DNA of 64,000 nucleotides from Galerina marginata (taxonomy: Eukaryota > Basidiomycota > Agaricomycetes > Agaricales > Galerinaceae). The position numbers and the translations under genes were made by a program. This document shows positions 3,249-29,489 of this stretch, piece after piece. The stretch's first letter is position 1. The number at the start of each line of letters is the position of its first letter. Under the pieces are notes generated by a model. That model was not told where the DNA came from. It was given only the letters and a program-made list of their open reading frames with translations, and did not search any database. Location: the NCBI GenBank assembly GCA_023014335.1, contig JAECYW010000008.1, positions 930,001 to 994,000 on the forward strand. The letters are read 5' to 3'.

Positions 3249-6200
3249 ATGTTTTCATTACCCTCAATTAGCAGGGCGATAGTCGGCCTTGCTCTTGCTA
3301 GCCTGGTTTCTGGTCTTGGGACGTCATGCACAGCCCCACTAGGAGCTGGAACGTCTGGGGCCAATGATCCTTTCTGGTTGGAAACTATCAAGCACCAAGG
3401 AAAGTCGGCCTTCAATGCTAATCCCAGCACCTACACTGTATTTCGAAACGTGAAGGTATGCAACCCGTTTGTCCATGGGTAGACATATTTTAACCTGTTT
3501 TCTAGAGTTACGGTGCGGTCGGCGATGGAGTCACCGACGATACTGCAGCGATCAAGTAAGCTAATTAGATTACATGAAATGAGGACTTGCAAGTAACATA
3601 TATCTTCTAGTGCGGCAATCACTGCTCAAGGTCGATGCGGTGGAGGAAGTTGTCATTCATCAACGTACGTTTTGAAAAGCACATTGGTTCTATTTATCAG
3701 TTGGTTGATGATGGGAATTTCTATCAGCGTTACCCCCGCCGTTGTGTATTTCCCCAAAGGGTGCGTACAATGGTTCTCTAAGTAAAGTCTTCCCTCATTC
3801 CCGACGTAGGACTTACCTCGTTTCCTCCCCGATTATCCCTTACTACTATACCCAACTTATCGGAGACGCCAAAAAGCCGCCGACCCTGCTCGCATCTGCT
3901 TCATTCAGCGGGATGGCCGTGATCGGTAAATACTCCGCCGCAGCATGCATGTAGATCTTATTGAAATGAATATTCACTCACAGATGCCGATCCATACATC
4001 CCTGGCGGAGGAGGCGCCCAGTATTATACCAATCAAAATAATTTGCAAGTACACTGGTTCTTCATTGGTGATTTGTTAGCTGATGGATTTTGGTTAGCTT
4101 CCGGTCGGTTAGAAACTTCGTCATCGATGTTACACGGTAGGCTTTCTCTTCAGCACTCTGTCAAGGAAGTTCTTAATCCTTTTCACCCAGCGTTGCTGCG
4201 ACGAATTCACAAGGAACAGGACTTCATTGGCAGGTGGCGCAAGCCACGTCTCTGATAAACATCGTTGTTCAAATGTCCACTGCCTCAAACACGGCGCATC
4301 AAGGTACGTACGACATCCCTTACAATAGCTCTGTGCGCTGAAGGCAAGAATGCCAGGAATCTGGATGGAAAATGGAAGGTAATGTTGCTTATGACGTTCT
4401 GAATTTTGTTCAACAAATTTACTTATCATTTTGTCCATAGTGGTGGCTTCATGGGTGACCTTGTGTTTAATGGAGGTAAGTCGAGAGAGTTTTTGTGGGT
4501 TTTTCTTTTGACTGACTTGTCGTCCTTCCTTGCAGGCAAATTCGGCATATGGGGCGGAAATCAACAGTAAGCCTGAGGAAAACTTCCTCGTTGCCCCATG
4601 CTAAAAATTCTCCAGATTTACAGTTAGAAATGTCACTGTTAACAACGCGCAAACCGGTGTCTATAGTTCCTGGAACTGGGGTGAGTCCTTTGGCTTAGAA
4701 GTTATAAACTGTTTTCATGGGTCATCTAGGCTGGACCTACCAGGGAATAACGTTTAACAACTGCCAGGTAGGATTATATCTTCATCGTGATTTTTCCATT
4801 TCTAATGCTGCTGCAGGTTGGGTTTGATATCGCGACAGGAGGGTTAACCACAGGTACCCAGGTCCGTGTTTCCCATAGTGAAATCGATATCATGTATTCA
4901 CGAACGATTTGCTTCTACTATCAGACCACCGGCGCTCAAGCTATAATCGACGCTGTGGCCACCAACACACCCATTTTCCTTCGAACTTCCCAGCCGAGCA
5001 ACGGAAAATTGGGAGGTTCACTTGTATTGAATAACGTGAAATTGAACAATGTCCCTGTCGCTGTCGGCGTCGTCGGTGGAGCTGTTGTTCTCAACGGAGG
5101 CACGACCACGATCGCGTCTTGGGGACAAGGAAACGTCTTCCGAGGAACGAGTCCGAATGCCGTATTTACCCAAGGAAACATTCCTGCCCCCAATAAACCT
5201 TCGGTCCTCCTGGATAGCGCAGGCCGAATTGTCAGCAAAACTCACCCGCAATACGCCGCTTATGCTGTTAGCCAGTTCGTCAGCGTGAAAGACAATGGTG
5301 CTAAAGGAGACGGCGTCACTGACGACACTGCTGCTCTGACCAGCATCTTCAACAAGGTTCGCCACAAGCCGTTTTCTTGATAATTTACTCGATGCTCAGC
5401 GTTCATTACGACAGTTTGCTGGATGCAAGATCATTTTCTTCGATGCTGGAACTTACGTGGTTTCGAACACTGTCACCATTCCTGCTGGCACCCAGATGGT
5501 CGGCGAAGCGTGGACTGTTCTCGCTGGAAAGGGTTCAGCATTCCAAGACCAGAATAACCCTAAACCCGTTTTCCAAGCTGGCGCCGCGGGATCGCAAGGT
5601 ATCTTAGAAATCACCGACATTCTATTCACGACTATTGGACCTAGTACGTGACAACCTCCCACAGCCAGCTTTAAACTTACAAGTTCTTCTTATACAGCTG
5701 CTGGCGCAATTATTCTGGAATGGAACGTTAAACAACCGTCTGGCGTACAAGCAGGCGCTGGAATGTGGGATTCCCACATCAGGTATTTTTTTTTGAAAGT
5801 CATCCAGTTTGGGCGCTCGCCGATGCTCCTTTTTCAGAACGGCTGGAGCTACAGGAACGAACCTGGAAGGGAACAAATGCCCTTCGAGTGGCTCTGGAGG
5901 ATTTACCAACTGTTTTGGATCATTTTTAGACCTGCATCTTACTTCTCAGTCGACTGCTTATCTCGAGGTTAGTCAGAGTGACTTTTTTTCCAACAACAAA
6001 ATCGATTAATATGCTCTCGAATAATAGGGTACTTGGGTGTGGGTGGCTGATCATGATCTTGATCTGGCTGGCGAAGGGCAACTCTCAGTCTATTCAGGAC
6101 GCGGTATACTGTCGGAATCTCAGGGCCCGGTATGGTTGATTGGGACATGTAAGTTCGTCACTTTATTTGATTTTTCTCCTGCTAACGACTTCACTTTGTT

Positions 6201-20537: not shown

Positions 20538-22516
20538 TTACGCATCACGCCCACGGTGCTGCTTGATGAGCTCTATAACCTTCTCCTGCGCCTTGTTGGA
20601 CTGCAAAATCTTCACAAAAGTCGCGTTATTAGCATATTCTCGAATGGCTCGATGAACCTTGGCCGCCTCTGAGATCTTATAATGTTCTAATGCCATAGTG
20701 ACTTGCTCTTCAGTGACCACCCGATGGGGCGGTTTGATGTGTAGGGTGTCTAAGAAAAGCTGATCCATCACGAGCGTCAGGTCGACTATGTAGCCCATGA
20801 GACAACGGAGGACCTCTGGGCTATAAACAGCGTGTAAATGGACATGCGTATGGGTGAAGTGGTAGTGTCATACTCACGACTTCTGATAGACGTGAGTAAT
20901 CCAATCTATAAACATGGCTGAAAGCCCGATGGCCGCAATGGCTGGAGCCGCCGCAGCGGCCAAGGCTGTCCCCACACCGATAAGACTCTGAATACGTTCC
21001 AGATTTTTGCTGGTACAGGGTTAATATGTGGATAGAATCCAAGCTTAGTGCTATATTGATACGCACAACCACGAATGATATTCCGAGGGGTCCAGGGTGA
21101 CCAGCTGTGCAAGAATCTTGATTTTCTCCTGAAAATCGGCGCTATTCAACAACTAGAGAAAAATGAGATCGGCACAACAATCGATCGGAAGTAGCATAGC
21201 GAGCGTACGTTGTCTGGATCGTTGAAGTTCCAACTTGAGGTGATATCGACGTGAATTGTGGCCAAACTTTGCGCAAGGGTAGATCCCGAAAGTTTAGCAC
21301 TCGACGCGAGACCCTGCCAGTATTCTAGAGAGTAATGTGAGTAGTATAGTTCCTCGAGCTTCAAGAACAGACAAGTTACGTTTCATGCCAACTCTATAGA
21401 CCGCAGACAAAGGTCAGTAAATCACAGTGGGATGACGAGAACAGCGACCTACTCAATGGAGGAATTGATTTTGGCTCGAGCGCTGGCTCTCTGAGCCGTT
21501 GCAGAAACAAGCCAGACATCCCCTTCCACGTTGTTCTCGACCAGACCTTGAGTGAGGTCGATAAGATTTGCCAAAGTCGATTGGTATGGTGGGTCCACTA
21601 GACAGGAGGTCATAAACGTCAACAAGGCTTAGAAAACAGGCTATCCAACCAGATATTTTGGCGTAAGAAGGCTTATGCTTGATCTTTTCGAGAGGAGCAA
21701 CGCATAGCTTCTGAAATTCGTCATCGGCTCTCTGTAAACAAAGGCGGTCGATGTCTTCACTGGACTTCTCCAACTCGTCATCAGTCAGATTTTCCTCCAT
21801 ACGACTGACTAGTTTATCGAACTTTGTAAAGACAACAACTACGGGTACTGTAAGCGGCATAATTCGTCAGGTAAGTTCAATCAGAGAGGGCTCGTGGATT
21901 TCACCTTTCGAAGCAAATTTAAGGAACTCTTCGTCACCAGTCTCAAAAACTCGACTACCGGCATAAGGGACTTCTATACAGAGCCTAAATTCAACGCCTT
22001 AGGTGGTAGGGCCGTGTTAAAATGAAAAACTCACCAAACAGCGTGAACTCTATCTTTGAGAGCCACGTCTTCACCATGCGACTTGATAAAGTGTTTCACC
22101 TTTTCCAAGTTCGCGATTTCGCTTGGCTCGAAACCTTGAGAATCGTGAAGTACAAACCGCGGATTCTGCGGGGAAATAATTTCGGTATTGATATCGCATA
22201 TTCCATGCTCTTGATGTGATACTGTCTATCGCGAGTCTCAACGGTGATTGTGGTGTGAGAGGGGAAGGATTTTACCGCAATGTCGACATTGAATGCATGG
22301 TTAATGAGTGAGGACTTTCCCACTCCAGACTAGGCATCTTTCTTAGGTTGGACATCGATGACAATGTGGAGCGTCCCACCTTTCCGACTAACAAAATTCG
22401 GAATCTATCAATTGTAAGTACTCAACAATGACCTGCACGTGCGATCGGAACAGATCGCACCTTGGACATTGCTCCAATATACCTTCAAACGTAGGCGGTA
22501 GAGTACGGGTGTCCAT
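20538..22516 (-). CDS. P-loop GTPase (G-domain protein), gene A
   Basis: 459 residues from 12 exons (minus): 22516-22461, 22404-22380, 22329-22276, 22225-22035, 21984-21905, 21847-21650, 21597-21453, 21393-21380, 21324-21209, 21152-21067, 21009-20878, 20820-20538. G motifs are in order: G1 GKSGVGKS (residues 26-33), G3 in VLHDSQGFE, G4 in VFTKFDKL. A hydrophobic helix follows (ALAAAAAPAIAAIGLSAMFI), possibly a membrane hairpin, then a charged helical tail. Exons of 25 and 14 nt are needed to keep frame. It belongs to the G-domain family expanded in Agaricomycetes (Era/AIG1-like fold); function is unknown. It lies head to head with paralogue B, 361 bp away. The first four exons are short but join into the continuous motif FRILLVGKSGVGKSS, which supports the model. 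Confidence 0.85.
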
Positions 22517-22877: not shown

Positions 22878-25800
22878 ATGAACAGCGCTATCGACCTCAG
22901 AAGCAAATGTGGCCATTTTCGCATTCTCGTCATTGGGAGGGCCAATGCCGGCAAGACAACCATCTTGAAGAAAGTATGCAATTCGATCGATGATCCTAAG
23001 ATCTTCAGTCCATCCGGCAAAAAGGTAATCAAGTTAGCGCTTGAAAGCGACCAGTCGGCTAAAAAGGATTTGTTGCAGCTCAATCTCGCAACCGTTCAGG
23101 GATCATCAGAGGTTCGACTTACTGTCTCTTTCAAATTCACCTCAACTTAACATAACACAGCGTGGATTGCATAACATCAAAAACCAGCTGATATTCAAGA
23201 GTAATCCGCAGTTCATCTTCCATGACTCTCGCGGATTCGAGTCCGGCTCCGTGGATGAAATGAAGATAGTACACTCTTTCGTCACCGAAAAAGCACAAAG
23301 CAGGGAGTTGTCTAAACAGCTGCATGCTATTTGGTGCATATTTATTGCTTTAAACCAAAGATGAAAACACTCATTGGATAAATGGCAGGTATTGTCTCCC
23401 CACGGACACAGACCGGCCACTGTTGGAGGCCGACAAGAAGTTCTTTGACAATTATGGTAGTGGAAGAGGTCAGTGACTGTTTTTAGGTACAGGACCTGTG
23501 CTAATTGTGATATTGAAGTACCCGTGGTTGCAATCTTCACAAAATTTGATGGCCTTGTTACTACAGCATTCAACGAGCTTCGAAAAGAGCATAAAGACCT
23601 TGGTATCAAAGAAGCAAAAGATAAAAGGTTTGGAAGAGCAAAAGAGAAATTGAACACAAACTTTATAGAACCACTTATGGCAACAAAATACCAACCATCT
23701 GGCTATGTCCGACTGGATGGTTAGTCAATTGGTACAATATGGGCATTCTGATAATTTTGTCATGATGTGGTCAGATATGCGAGATGTGGCCAGTAACTGC
23801 ACTGAACTCATTGAAAAGACAGCAAGTGTACTCAATGATGACACACTGAAGCTATTATTTGTGTCTGTACAAGAAAATAACATCAACCTTTGTATTCATA
23901 AAGGAGTACACAAGTGAGTGACTTCTTCTTTTGTTTGTGCTTATTTGCTTATTAGTGGACTGTTGGAATTCATAGAGGATTGTTAGTGAGAGAAAGAAAA
24001 TGCAAGCTTGATATTTTGCATCTGATGAATTCTGATATGCAATGAAAAAATTCTAGATCATAAGATACCGCTAGAAGCACTTGTAAGAGCAGTTCTATCA
24101 TGGTTCCCCCATGTCTGGGTAGGTGATGCTATACTTTCATGCCAGAAAACACCATTCTGACAACATTGGTCCAATTGGGAAAATGCAGAAGGTATATTTT
24201 TTTATAGGCTTTGGAATATGAATCACAAATATTGACTACTGACTTGATACTCTGTAAACAGGATGTGAGTTTTCAATAATTTCTATAATTTTTTTTTTTT
24301 TAACTTAGTCCTTCAGTTTGTATGATGTTTTATTTATCTTCCCTCAATGAAGGTACTGACAGACATACTAGAAGGTCAGAACATATTATTTACTTGTTAT
24401 GGATATACTAAGTATTGGATTAAAAATATCTAAAATTAGTATGTAAGTGATACAAATTGTCCTTTCATGTTAATGGCAACCATGTTGATAAAATGATGAC
24501 TGTATAGGATGTGAGTTCAAATTCCAATCTTGGAGTTAATGACTAAGTGGTGTGTTATTGGCTTCTGTAGAAGGTAAATACAAGTTGTACTATTGACCTT
24601 TACAAAATGTCTCATCTTACTGCCCTCTGGTGTGCCATCTTATCAGGAGGTGAGTATCAATATGATGCCAATCTGTTTAATTCAGTGAATGATCTCTGCT
24701 TTGTTGCTACAGGAAGTGAGTGTCAATTTGGTGCCATAAAATCTGCATTATTTTGCTGAATGACCTCTGCTTTGTTGCTACAGGATGTGAGTGTCAATTT
24801 GGTGCCATAAAATCTGCATTATTTTGCTGAATGACCTCTGCTTTGTCTCTACAGGAAGTGAGTGTCAATTTGGTGCCATAAAATCTGCATTATTTTGCTG
24901 AATGACCTCTGCTTTGTTTCTACAGGAAGTGAGTGTCAATTTAGTGTCATAAAATCTGCATTATTTTGCTGAATGACCTCTGCTTTGTCCCTACAGCCTG
25001 TGAGTGTCAATTTGGTGCCATAAAATCTGCATTATTTTGCTGAATGACCTCTGCTTTGTCTCTACAGGTTGTGAGTGTCAATTTAGTGTCATAAAATCTG
25101 CATTATTTTGCTGAATGACCTCTGCTTTGTCTCTACAGTTTGTGAGTGTCAGTTTGGTGCCATAAAATCTGCATTATTTTGCTGAATGAACTCTGCTTTG
25201 TCTCTACAGTTTGTGAGTGTCAATTTAGTGTCATAAAATCTGCATTATTTTGCTGAATGACCTCTGCTTTGTCCCTACAGCCTGTGAGTGTCAATTTGGT
25301 GCCATAAAATCTGCATTATTTTGCTGAATGACCTCTGCTTTGTCTCCACAGGTCGTGAGTGTCAATTTAGTGCCATAAAATCTGCATTATTTTGCTGAAT
25401 GATCTCTGCTTTGTCTCTACAGAAAGTGAGTGTCAATTTGGTGCCATAAAATCTGCATTATTTTGCTGAATGATCTCTGCTTTGTCTCTACAGAAAGTGA
25501 GTGTCAATTTGGTGCCATAAAATCTGCATTATTTTGCTAAATGACCTCTGTTTTGTGTCTACAGAAAGTGAGTGTCAATTTGGTGCCGTAAAATCTGTAT
25601 TATTTTGCTGAATGACCTCTGCTTTGTCTCTACAGAAAGTGAGTATCAATTTGGTGCCATAAAATGTGCATTATATTGCTGAATGGCCTTTGCTTTGTCT
25701 CTACAGTATGTGAGTGTCAATTTAGTGCCATGAAATCTGCATTATTTTGTTAAATGACCTCTGCTTTGTCTCTGCAGAATGTGAGTGTTAATTTCATATT

Positions 25801-26419
25801 TTTTAGTATACTTTGTTGTGTTTTACCATGTCTGCAGATAGTATGTATTATTATTATTTAGGCCCTTGCAGATCATTTTAGTGCTTCTGAATTATTGTTT
25901 TTCTCTGGTTTTCAGTTTGTGAGTTTGTCACCCAACATAATCTATAGTTTCTTCCTCCACCATTAATGATTCACATTTTTTAATCTAGGATGACAACATC
26001 AAATTCTGCACTCAAGTTTTCCTCAACAAATTTCCTGGTTTGGTGTGTACACCAATGGTTCAGTACAAATTTATTATTTATTTTTGTATTGTTCTAGGAG
26101 GATTCATTACAGACACTCTCAGGCTGGGCAGAGCTAATTGCTGGTATGCAGCTGTTCATTTTGATACCTTACAAGTTGCATCTCATTCTCTACAGCACTA
26201 TCTATTTGTGCTGAGCAAACATTTACACAAGCATCTGCAAAAGAACAGGGGTTTTCAACTGCATTTTCAACTGTCTTCAGTGCTTATATAAAGTCCACCA
26301 TCATGGAGGATGTTAACAAAGCAATCAGGGACTTGGACCCAAAAGAATATAGGAAACAGCTGGTGCACATTATCAGAAAACATCCAATTCGTTTGTGGTT
26401 TTTCTTTCAATGTCAATAG
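22878..26419 (+). CDS. P-loop GTPase (G-domain protein), gene B, with 26 single-codon exons
   Basis: 438 residues if all exons are used. N-terminal exons: 22878-23111, 23161-23333, 23389-23468, 23519-23719, 23775-23913, 23956-23981, 24057-24118. Then 26 exons of exactly 3 nt (24189-25918, listed in the array entry). C-terminal exons: 25989-26042, 26098-26143, 26196-26419. G1 is GRANAGKT (residues 20-27), G3 is in FIFHDSRGFE, G4 is in IFTKFDGL. The part after the array (DDNIKFCTQVFLNKFPGLEDS and on) is helical and Leu-rich. Phases agree at every junction: N-terminal part 915 nt, microexons 78 nt, C-terminal part 324 nt, all multiples of three. From exon 4 on, codon use is much more AT-rich than in the first exons or in gene A. 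Function of the family is unknown. If the array is instead one 1870-nt intron the protein would be 412 residues, still in frame. Confidence 0.8.
24119..25988 (+). other. Array of 26 three-nucleotide microexons and 27 introns
   Basis: Each unit has the form ...AG, three bases, GT.... Codons and first bases: AAG 24189; GAT 24262; TTT 24317; AAG 24372; TAT 24440; GAT 24508; AAG 24571; GAG 24647; GAA 24713; GAT 24784; GAA 24855; GAA 24926; CCT 24997; GTT 25068; TTT 25139; TTT 25210; CCT 25281; GTC 25352; AAA 25423, 25494, 25565, 25636; TAT 25707; AAT 25778; ATA 25838; TTT 25916. There is no stop codon. The encoded stretch is acidic, then Pro/Phe/Val, then four Lys and Y-N-I-F. Introns are 52-75 nt, the normal range here, with GTGAGT, GTAAGT, GTATGT or similar donors and pyrimidine-rich YAG acceptors. 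Units 1-8, 25 and 26 are not copies of the tandem repeat, yet show the same 3-nt spacing; that argues against chance. Splicing itself is inferred, not shown. Confidence 0.72.
24713..25780 (+). repeat. 71-bp tandem repeat: 68-nt intron plus one codon
   Basis: GTGAGT recurs at exactly 71-bp steps from 24716 to 25781 (15 full periods). Each copy runs GTGAGTGTCAATTTGGTGCC, then an AT-rich centre, then a TGAATGACC branch-like element about 20 nt before CTCTGCTTTGTCTCTACAG. Copies differ at only a few positions (for example TTGGTGCC or TTAGTGTC). The three bases after the acceptor vary far more: GAA, GAT, CCT, GTT, TTT, GTC, AAA, TAT, AAT. A diverged 66-bp copy precedes it (24650-24715), and a 60-bp copy sharing only its first part follows. 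Confidence 0.97.
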
Positions 26420-27200: not shown

Positions 27201-29489
27201 CTACTCTTCAATGAGAACCTCAAAAATTTCCAGCAACAGGTGCCAATCCTTCTCTGTAAACACCTCCCAATAATTCAGCCACCACCTTTCTCGAAGCAAC
27301 ACAGCAGCTGGGCCACCCAGTGTGGCGACATGAACCTCCAATGCACGAAGGAGGGACAAAGCTTTGGACATGTCTGGACATATACTCTCCAGCCACACAA
27401 GGTTGACAGAAGGCGGGAAGAGTGTCAACATCCCCTCGGCGCAGAGCTTCACCCTGTCCCAACGACCGATCTCCTTGCCGCGCGTTATCCACTGCTCGAA
27501 CTCTTCAAACATTCCACAAGCCAGTTTGAGGTGGTCAACATTGACACCTGCGCCTAAGCCTAAGCCTACGCCTCGGTCCTCTTGAGACGCCATGAGGGTC
27601 GGCGAGAGGAGCCGGTGGAGGAGCGCCCAGGCCACTACAATGTCGTGCGTCTGCAAGCCGTATTTCCGTGGCATGAGCATCTTCACGCTGAGCAGGAGCT
27701 GCACGTTGATTTCAGGGTTAAGAAGAGAGAGCGAGGCACTGGCATTCGAGGACGATGGTGACGTCGATGCGAGTTCTTGCAGGATCTCGGAGAGCCAGTC
27801 GTAGAACGGCTGCGGTACTTCTTGCGAGTTGAGGATACGGATTACGGCTTCGATGTACGAGTTTTTGAGTACGGGGTGGGCATCTTGGTGTAGACGAAGG
27901 TAGTAGGCGGAGAGGATGTCGCGCTTCTGTTCCTCTGCGGGGGAAAATCGATCATCTAGCATTACTCGAAGAGTGGCGTCGTCGATTTGGCCACCCAGGT
28001 AGAAACCTGAGATGGTCGTGGCCGCAGTCGAGACATCCAAATCGGCAAGACCATGGTATATAGGGTATACAGCCTCGACACTCTGCGAAAACGTGGTGTT
28101 GATCCACTGAAGGCCATGCACCAGGTCGTCGGAGTCTTTCAGCTTCCTCGCCGTGCCTCTCGTCACCTCATCCGCGTCTCTGAACTGCCTCCACCGCATG
28201 TCGAATGTCATCCAGTTGAGGTCACCTGCGGATTTGAGCAGTCGGTGGAACCGAGGGGAGTCAAATTTTGACCATGGCAGTTCGAACGAGTTGAATATCC
28301 AAAAGAGGGTGTGGCCTGTACGGTAGAATAGCCAGGATTGAGGGGATTTATAGGGGCACTGTTTGACTCGAAGGTACTTGTCCTTGGTAAACGCGTGCTG
28401 GAGAGCTGGAAGCGCAGTCGTAGCGGAGAGAAAGAGCATGACGACCCCCACAGCTACAGTGACACACCCAGCCACCAGCGTATGCCGGGCCCATAGAAGA
28501 TCGAGCAGTCCGATAAAGAAGAGAATGAGGGACGACTGAAGGAGTATGGGTAGGAGCGAAAGAATATCGGGCACGCGCCAATATAGCAGTCCTTCGTATC
28601 GCATTTGCCGAAGAGCGACGGCTTCTTTGTGGGGAAGGGCCGCGTCTCTTTGATATTCACGGAGCCATTGGAGGCAGAGAATACCGATTAGCACTGTGGT
28701 TAGGCCGAGGGTAAGGCTGAGGAACCACGCGGCGTTGATTCGGACGTCGGAGGCGGAGACGGAAAAGGGCTGGAGGAGTAGATTGGAGGGTACGGAGGAA
28801 TTGGTGGCTTGGCTTGCGAGTACCCCGAGAAGGCGAACTGAAACGTCGTTGGGGTCCTCTGACAGCCATTTGTACGATTCTATCGTGAAGGATGTAATGG
28901 TCGCCGAGAATAAACCAGCCTGTGAGACGTTGGTATTGGTTTGTTCAGATTGACCGCGAACAGTAAGAAAAAATACGCACGAAAATAAGGAGCTTGTCGA
29001 CCTCCTCCTTCCAGGCATAGCACATCTCATTGTCGTACTTCTCCGTTAATTCGTTGCACTTTTGCCAGGCGTCTCCCTTCTTGGGAGCACCATACCGATG
29101 AGGGTCTCCACAGTGCCAAGGTCGGTCGCCGAACTACATAGTGGTCTCGGTAAATTTTTTGCCATAACGATAACGGCAAGGTAGGACCCACCTGTTCTTG
29201 AAATTCTGGCTGTGAATTTGGAATGGGCGACGGGCCTTTCAGGTTTGGGTTTCTACTTTGGCGCCGGGGTGCCTGATGAGGGGTAAGTCAGAGGATAGGT
29301 CGTCCATGACGTGAATCCACTTACAGGGTTATATGGATTATCAGGTAACGATGCCTGGTTGAAGCTAAACCTGGGCAATTTTTCTGCGGAGCCATGGTTC
29401 AGAGAAGGGCCATCGAATTCCTCCTCGGCTTCAACTTTCGTGGCCTGGCTATCGAGTCGTGCTGGCCGCCTTTCTAGGTCGACAGACAT
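27201..29489 (-). CDS. DUF6535-family membrane protein
   Basis: 705 residues from four exons (minus): 29489-29325, 29272-29192, 29133-28981, 28919-27201. After a hydrophilic N-terminus, the segment YDNEMCYAWKEEVDKLLIFAGLFSATITSFTIESYKWL marks the DUF6535 domain: a charged helix, then the first membrane helix ending in ESYK. Two or three more hydrophobic segments follow (INAAWFLSLTLGLTTVLIG; ILLQSSLILFFIGLLDLLW; LVAGCVTVAVGVVMLFLSATTALP). The C-terminal 350 residues are soluble and helical. The family is known mainly from Agaricomycetes, occurs in many copies and has no assigned function. All junctions are canonical and in phase 0. Confidence 0.86.

Follow-up and report, generated by a model that had tools for sequence, protein, structure and literature searches.

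The question raised by this locus is whether part of a protein can be encoded by a long run of exons that hold one codon each. The window analyzed here is a stretch of 64,000 nucleotides (nt) (G000:C42:930001-994000) from a genome of 69.3 Mb in 43 contigs. It contains a predicted GTPase gene on the + strand, from 22878 to about 26419, in which 26 units of the form AG-NNN-GT follow one another between 24119 and 25988. The 26 units are probably consecutive exons of one codon each that are spliced together, which would give the protein a variable loop of 26 residues after its GTP-binding domain, diversified by recombination. The narrower claim, that the 26 units are translated single-codon exons, is very probable from the sequence comparisons described below.

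Structure of the array

The 26 units, their introns, the absence of stops and the phase had been described in an earlier, sequence-only reading of the window, and each was recovered at its place. Seven ordinary exons (915 nt) precede the 26 three-base exons, and three exons (54+46+224=324 nt including the stop, which ends at 26419) follow them. Both flanking parts are whole numbers of codons, and thus the array is in phase 0. The 27 introns around the units are 52-75 nt each, and none of the 26 triplets is a stop. The triplets translate as KDFKYDKEEDEEPVFFPVKKKKYNIF, so that the predicted peptide reads ...SWFPHVW-KDFKYDKEEDEEPVFFPVKKKKYNIF-DDNIKFC...

The longest chain of AG-NNN-GT sites at a spacing of 45-80 nt had 26 members in this region, compared with a maximum of five in 500 dinucleotide shuffles, and a chance run of motifs was therefore rejected. 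For the first eight units alone, which are not part of a repeat, the maximum in 2000 shuffles was four. The longest chains in the window on either side of the array region had two and three members. Between 24050 and 26000 there are 35 AG-NNN-GT sites in total, nine of them outside the chain: eight sit 4 bases downstream of a unit (seven TGA and one TAT) and one sits 8 bases past the last unit. Two other candidate explanations were also rejected. A tandem repeat cannot be the sole cause, since ten units lie outside the repeat and the arrays of paralogous genes use other intron sequences. Recursive splicing, in which AG and GT directly adjoin, does not fit the three bases found between the sites in all 26 units.

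Paralogous arrays in the same genome

In a translated search, the genome yielded 39 matches, and 19 related stretches around them were analyzed together with one control stretch (L065) beside the window. Strict sites were defined as YAG-NNN-GTRNK, 45-95 nt apart. By these rules the longest chain in the window shrinks to 19 members (units 8-26), as the sites of units 1-7 are weaker. Strict chains of 9-38 units were present in 13 of the 19 related stretches (L046, 14; L047, 17; L048, 17; L049, 14; L050, 24; L051, 24; L052, 13; L053, 38; L054, 25; L055, 26; L056, 27; L057, 24; L058, 9), which with the window makes 14 array genes. In L059-L064 and the control, strict chains did not exceed two units. 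The earlier proposal of consecutive single-codon exons in a GTPase gene thus has strong support from the sequence, and applies to 13 more genes as well.

The introns of the paralogous arrays are 44-108 nt long, and the consensus introns fall into about four types. In L046, L047, L051, L053 and L056, where both array ends could be read by eye, the array lies between an exon resembling SWF and one resembling KDVACAHFN, as in the window; in others one end could be read in this way. Because the paralogs have a common array site, the position of the array probably predates the split of the GTPase subfamilies.

Several individual loci deserve a separate description. In L049, about 660 bases of other sequence (about 3400-4060) break the array-like region and are perhaps an insertion. 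L058, on the - strand of its stretch, has its nine strict units in an array-like repeat of about 1.2 kb and looks degenerate. L059 is 97.5% identical to L053 across 1,497 alignment columns of the 5' part, has no array and looks truncated. A possible two-codon exon, between AG and GTGAGA, stands just before the single-codon series in L046 (2729-2734, AACTAT) and L053 (2453-2458, AATCAT).

Evidence that the triplets are translated

The strict chains of the 14 genes provided 348 triplets, with the window contributing 19 of its 26 units, as the first seven score too low. With a relaxed chain, 350 triplets included two stops, which lay in L058, 4 bases downstream of a strict unit in each case; this chain was replaced by the nine-unit strict chain of L058, giving the 348. 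There was no stop among them, where 14.9 (pooled) or 13.9 (gene by gene) would be expected from the base composition at each position, and the probability of finding none is about 2e-7 or 5e-7, respectively. In addition, all 36 TAN triplets were TAT. From the third bases of each array, 13.4 TAA or TAG triplets would be expected (P about 8e-11, assuming independence), and in L046, L051 and L053 75-83% of the non-TAN triplets have a purine at the third base. Two further features of the 348 triplets were noted. TGN triplets, which include Cys and Trp, are absent (about 12 expected), and 93% of the third bases are A or T.

Codon positions 1 and 2 are also among the most variable columns of the repeated unit. 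Diversity was tabulated for the 13 arrays with at least five similar units, and L058, with three core units, was left out. Diversity at codon positions 1 and 2 was 0.48-0.80, compared with a flank mean of 0.06-0.19. Both positions ranked within the top four of 53 columns in 10 of the 13 arrays, and in L051, L054 and L055 one of them ranked fifth or sixth. Codon position 3 was less diverse than positions 1 and 2 in 11 of the 13 (the exceptions being the window and L055), and in L050 and L054 it was invariant while positions 1 and 2 vary. Among 49 pairs of introns identical letter for letter, the left codon differed in 55% and the right codon in 43%.

Splicing signals

Among the array introns (n=330), 307 end in CAG and 20 in TAG, and 245 start with GTGAGT and 35 with GTAAGT. 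The branch-site motif CTRAY was found 12-50 nt before the intron end in 284 of the 330, versus 38 in shuffles, and in three intron types. Since there is hardly room for two splice complexes on 3 nt, splicing would have to be sequential. Each short intron would be recognized singly and the introns taken out one after another, so that every excision adds a codon to the message. Every codon is in phase 0, and therefore any subset of them would stay in frame; alternative inclusion of single-codon exons is predicted, with chances that we consider to be about even.

Turnover, probable recombination and confinement of the arrays

The arrays differ between genes that are otherwise nearly identical. 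For example, L051 and L053 share 99.0% identity over 1,295 nt upstream and 96.8% over 595 nt downstream of their arrays, yet their arrays have 26 and 40 codons, and the codons differ from the sixth on, except for the last two. In L053 a block of six units is duplicated at 100% identity over 355 nt, and three-unit duplications of 98-99% identity were found in L046, L049 and L057. Seven arrays and the window had no duplicated block of at least three units. L048 and L056 have a common consensus intron and different codons. Intron identities of 1.00 involving L055 or L050/L053 were short end overlaps and were not used. The duplicated blocks and the contrast between L051 and L053 show that codon and intron are copied jointly in blocks, and that the arrays change more rapidly than other parts of the gene. 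Diversification by block recombination is accordingly a probable reading of these sequences.

The intron sequences are largely confined to the array genes. All 15 matches to the pattern of the window's intron type lie in the array of the window. For a second pattern, 99 of the 100 places listed (166 in all) lie in known array genes; for a third, 99 of 99 lie in four array genes on C40; and for a fourth, 25 of 26 lie in one array gene. The more general motif T.CAG...GTGAGT has 393 sites in the genome, 251 of them in the 14 array loci, and the reversed pattern has 99. Thus, about 40 sites in excess of the control remain to be accounted for, and the genome may contain further arrays. Among the first 100 of the 393 sites, the places on contigs C1-C17 are isolated, as judged by eye.

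Homologues in other sources

Database relatives of the predicted protein (P numbers) allow the edges of the array to be compared with continuous sequence. Three proteins from JGI contigs of 1.0-1.7 kb continue in an unbroken frame past HVW, as KDTEYD (P0041), ANFEYD (P0009) and TNAEYD (P0003), which the first six separate codons of the window (KDFKYD) match. These frames are probably complementary DNAs (cDNAs), because a gene so rich in introns can be read unbroken only from spliced RNA or from an intronless copy. After the D codon, P0041 reads VSE and P0009 reads VC. These protein letters are consistent with a retained donor like GTGAGT or GTATGT directly after that codon, and do not prove it. 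After TNAEYD, P0003 reads LDPRPPDRLHRPRRDPRPLRRDPLLCF, then LDNVDTC, and LDPRPPDRLHRPRRDPRPLRRDPLLCF looks like the product of a spliced array. The P0003 insert comprises 33 residues (279-311), of which 281-298 are modelled at a predicted local distance difference test (pLDDT) score below 50. At the other edge, the array of the window ends in F, and in some relatives (P0003, P0052 and P0072) this position is occupied by the F of F-[DE]-x-N or F-L-D-N.

The earlier suggestion that the triplets are ancestral coding sequence thus holds for the edges, that is, for the first six residues and the last F. It does not hold for the middle, which is a variable, expanded zone, and the motif K-K-Y-N-I-F, which had been put forward in its support, was not seen in the relatives that were read. 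A protein search with the array region of the window gave a single match, P0001. A search with the end of P0041 gave five rows including P0041 itself and was uninformative.

Alternative explanations

Several observations count against the proposed exon array and have to be weighed. The first seven units of the window have weak splice sites and are lost from the strict chain. CTRAY is found in none of the 18 scored introns of the window, most of which carry CTGAATGAC. Two splice complexes could hardly assemble across 3 nt at once. Certain intron columns vary as much as the codon columns. The motif [DN]xxYD occurs in three of the seven JGI proteins that were read and reach HVW (P0003, P0004, P0008, P0009, P0041, P0071 and P0121) and is absent from P0004, P0008, P0071 and P0121, and the cDNA status of the P0041, P0009 and P0003 frames is deduced from their absence of introns. 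The gene models of P0020, P0021 and P0072 join HVW or HVY straight to the next exon, and the model of P0001 is without the HVW exon. Finally, recombination is read from its end products only, and the codon diversity could partly be old diversity retained while the introns were homogenized, which would still require selection on the codons.

Some of these points would be expected if the whole of 24119-25988 were removed as non-coding, either as one large intron or by skipping all units, with the AG-NNN-GT units left over from tandem duplication of an intron. The weak sites of the first seven units and the direct joining of HVW or HVY in P0020, P0021 and P0072 both agree with this, and the frame survives the skipping of all units. 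The sequence-only reading had named homologues with no residues at this point as a result that would refute its claim. They do occur among some automatic models, but such models could hardly hold 3-nt exons. Removal as non-coding sequence is improbable, in view of the absence of stops from the 348 triplets, the TAT in all 36 TAN triplets, the greater variation of triplets than of introns, the phase preserved on both sides, and the parallels to KDFKYD in unbroken frames elsewhere. It is very improbable that copies of one mobile intron entered a formerly uninterrupted coding sequence at every codon boundary, leaving the original codons in place. Different codons flanked by near-identical introns would result, and introner-like elements are reported in fungi (PMC4457414). 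However, codon and intron are duplicated jointly (100% over the six units of L053), the number of codons changes from 26 to 40 between genes with 99% identical upstream flanks, and none of the three intron types tried is scattered through other genes.

A further alternative accepts that the exons are real and spliced and concerns the meaning of the loop. It may be a passive, fast-drifting linker without a part in recognition, with slippage or recombination multiplying the units and selection removing only stops. Several arrays are of low complexity (rich in D, G, Y and A), the loop is predicted to be disordered, and arrays grow and shrink, all of which fit a linker. Neutral drift, though, would not raise codon positions 1 and 2 so far above the adjacent introns, with position 3 lower in 11 of the 13 arrays, and we regard a purely passive linker as rather unlikely. 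For these reasons, single-codon exons diversified by recombination and by selection on the protein are the preferred reading.

The gene and its surroundings

G-domain GTPases are defined by the P-loop motif GxxxxGK[ST] and by [NT]KxD. The predicted protein contains both, as GRANAGKT and TKFD. A Pfam search of the window protein at 1e-3 returned no family. For MMR_HSR1 (cut-off 21.9 bits), the relative P0037 passes with 26.2 bits, while P0003 (20.3 bits) and P0021 (18.7 bits) fall below; in P0003 this is the best row, NACHT reaches 12.4 bits against a cut-off of 26.7, and there is no ankyrin row. The database holds 1,105 relatives at E<=0.001, and the closest named proteins are from Galerina marginata, then from other mushroom-forming fungi, which makes an agaric the likely source of the gene. 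The lists of structural neighbours are mostly of the G domain and give little information on the helical part. The array loop is predicted to form a disordered segment between two helices of the C-terminal helical part. The features of the gene are given in Table 1.

Table 1. Predicted exons, array units and repeat of the GTPase gene, in window coordinates.
Feature	Position	Strand	Basis or remark
Coding exon 1, P-loop GRANAGKT	22878..23111	+	exon model, relatives; start codon uncertain
Coding exon 2	23161..23333	+	exon model
Coding exon 3	23389..23468	+	exon model
Coding exon 4, TKFD	23519..23719	+	exon model
Coding exon 5	23775..23913	+	exon model
Coding exon 6, 26 nt	23956..23981	+	least certain; picked to preserve frame
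Coding exon 7, ends ...SWFPHVW	24057..24118	+	exon model; conserved in relatives
Array, 26 predicted single-codon exons and 27 introns	24119..25988	+	
Single-codon exon 1, AAG (K)	24189..24191	+	
Single-codon exon 2, GAT (D)	24262..24264	+	
Single-codon exon 3, TTT (F)	24317..24319	+	
Single-codon exon 4, AAG (K)	24372..24374	+	
Single-codon exon 5, TAT (Y)	24440..24442	+	
Single-codon exon 6, GAT (D)	24508..24510	+	
Single-codon exon 7, AAG (K)	24571..24573	+	
Single-codon exon 8, GAG (E)	24647..24649	+	
71-nt tandem repeat, contains units 9-24	24686..25794	+	15.6 copies, 92% matches
Units 9-24, E D E E P V F F P V K K K K Y N	24713 to 25778	+	one codon per 71 nt
Single-codon exon 25, ATA (I)	25838..25840	+	
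Single-codon exon 26, TTT (F)	25916..25918	+	
First exon past array, DDNIKFC...	25989..26042	+	exon model
Second coding exon past array	26098..26143	+	exon model
Last coding exon with stop	26196..26419	+	exon model; precise gene end uncertain

A second G-domain gene lies at 21450-22421 on the - strand of the window, head to head with the array gene. Such a head-to-head G-domain gene was also found at most 1.2-1.5 kb upstream of L050, L051 and L053, that is, in 4 of the 14 array genes in total, and the array-less copy L059 has one as well. Upstream of L047 and L048, at a distance of 4-5 kb and in the same orientation, there is also a G-domain gene (L064 and L063, respectively). The head-to-head pairs recall paired sensor and helper genes, an analogy that is only a lead. 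Downstream of the array gene and tail to tail with it, an open frame of 609 residues occupies 27201-29030 on the - strand. Elsewhere in the genome there are at least 87 NACHT matches, many of them on contig C34.

Relation to known systems

Single-codon exon arrays are a known kind of structure. As far as searched, the protein family is new for them, and the phylum is probably new. Among the results listed, our literature search, which covered few subscription papers, showed neither a GTPase nor a basidiomycete with such arrays described, nor the contrast between hypervariable codons and conserved introns. The sequence-only reading had known of no described case, which is superseded by the Tuber melanosporum genes: in PMC4986451, PMC3689799 and PMC10197012, which cite Iotti et al. 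(2012), an expanded NACHT-ankyrin family, or its sensor domains, is described as diversified via alternative splicing of codon-sized (3-bp) microexons. This type (nank) shares with the present genes the expanded fungal gene family, the tens of 3-bp exons and the proposed diversification of a sensor part. As sequence architecture, tens of tandem 3-bp exons are found here too (26 in the window and 9-38 in 13 paralogs), in an expanded family of 14 array genes in one genome. However, Tuber is an ascomycete with NACHT-ankyrin proteins and reported alternative splicing, whereas the genes described here encode a G-domain GTPase family, probably of a mushroom-forming basidiomycete, whose splicing is predicted from sequence. 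The predicted protein is not of the NACHT-ankyrin kind, as it has no Pfam family and the NACHT score of P0003 is below the cut-off.

Other systems are less similar. The micro-exon genes (MEG) of Schistosoma have exons of 3-81 bp, introns of up to 5 kb and secreted products, according to PMC10526429, and share with the present genes tiny exons down to 3 bp and families of variable proteins. Here, in contrast, all array exons are 3 nt, and long introns were not found. Fungal introner-like elements also form sets of near-identical introns (PMC4457414). The copies found here are not dispersed in many unrelated genes, but confined to the array genes of one family, where they stand head to tail with one codon each. 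The hypervariable repeats of fungal NOD-like receptors (NLRs) include WD40, ANK and TPR repeats. They resemble the arrays in that the repeat number changes and chosen residues vary (PMC4986451 and PMC10197012). In the arrays, however, each repeat codes for a single residue, and its conserved part is the intron.

Proposed mechanism and significance

We propose that unequal recombination would use the near-identical introns as homology arms, by which single residues may be added, dropped and reordered with the frame intact. Codon diversity would then be maintained by selection that favours changes in the protein. A role of the loop in recognizing nonself or partner molecules is proposed because of the analogy with the Tuber NACHT-ankyrin genes, and is put forward as a possibility that falls just short of even likelihood. 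A broader and more tentative idea is a single-residue diversity generator, in which, over generations, intron arms would rearrange one-codon cassettes inside a GTPase gene and exchange them among such genes, and the skipping of cassettes in frame would yield many loops per gene. The result might be a combinatorial immune or self-recognition repertoire outside the NLRs.

The best local alignment spans at most 72% of the query in 108 of the 120 relatives listed (of 1,105), and several models enter non-homologous sequence directly after HVW. Therefore, public annotation may widely be missing such arrays, which is a guess from proteins rather than DNA. If transcripts confirm the arrays, about 350 single-codon exons would be present in 14 genes of one fungal genome. 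Use of the smallest whole-codon exon as a building block would then extend beyond the Tuber case to another protein family and probably to another fungal phylum. How the spliceosome handles dozens of consecutive 3-nt exons would become a testable question, as would the idea that introns acting as recombination arms let a protein loop evolve residue by residue. The large GTPase family to which the gene belongs, with its many database relatives, would be a set of candidate recognition proteins.

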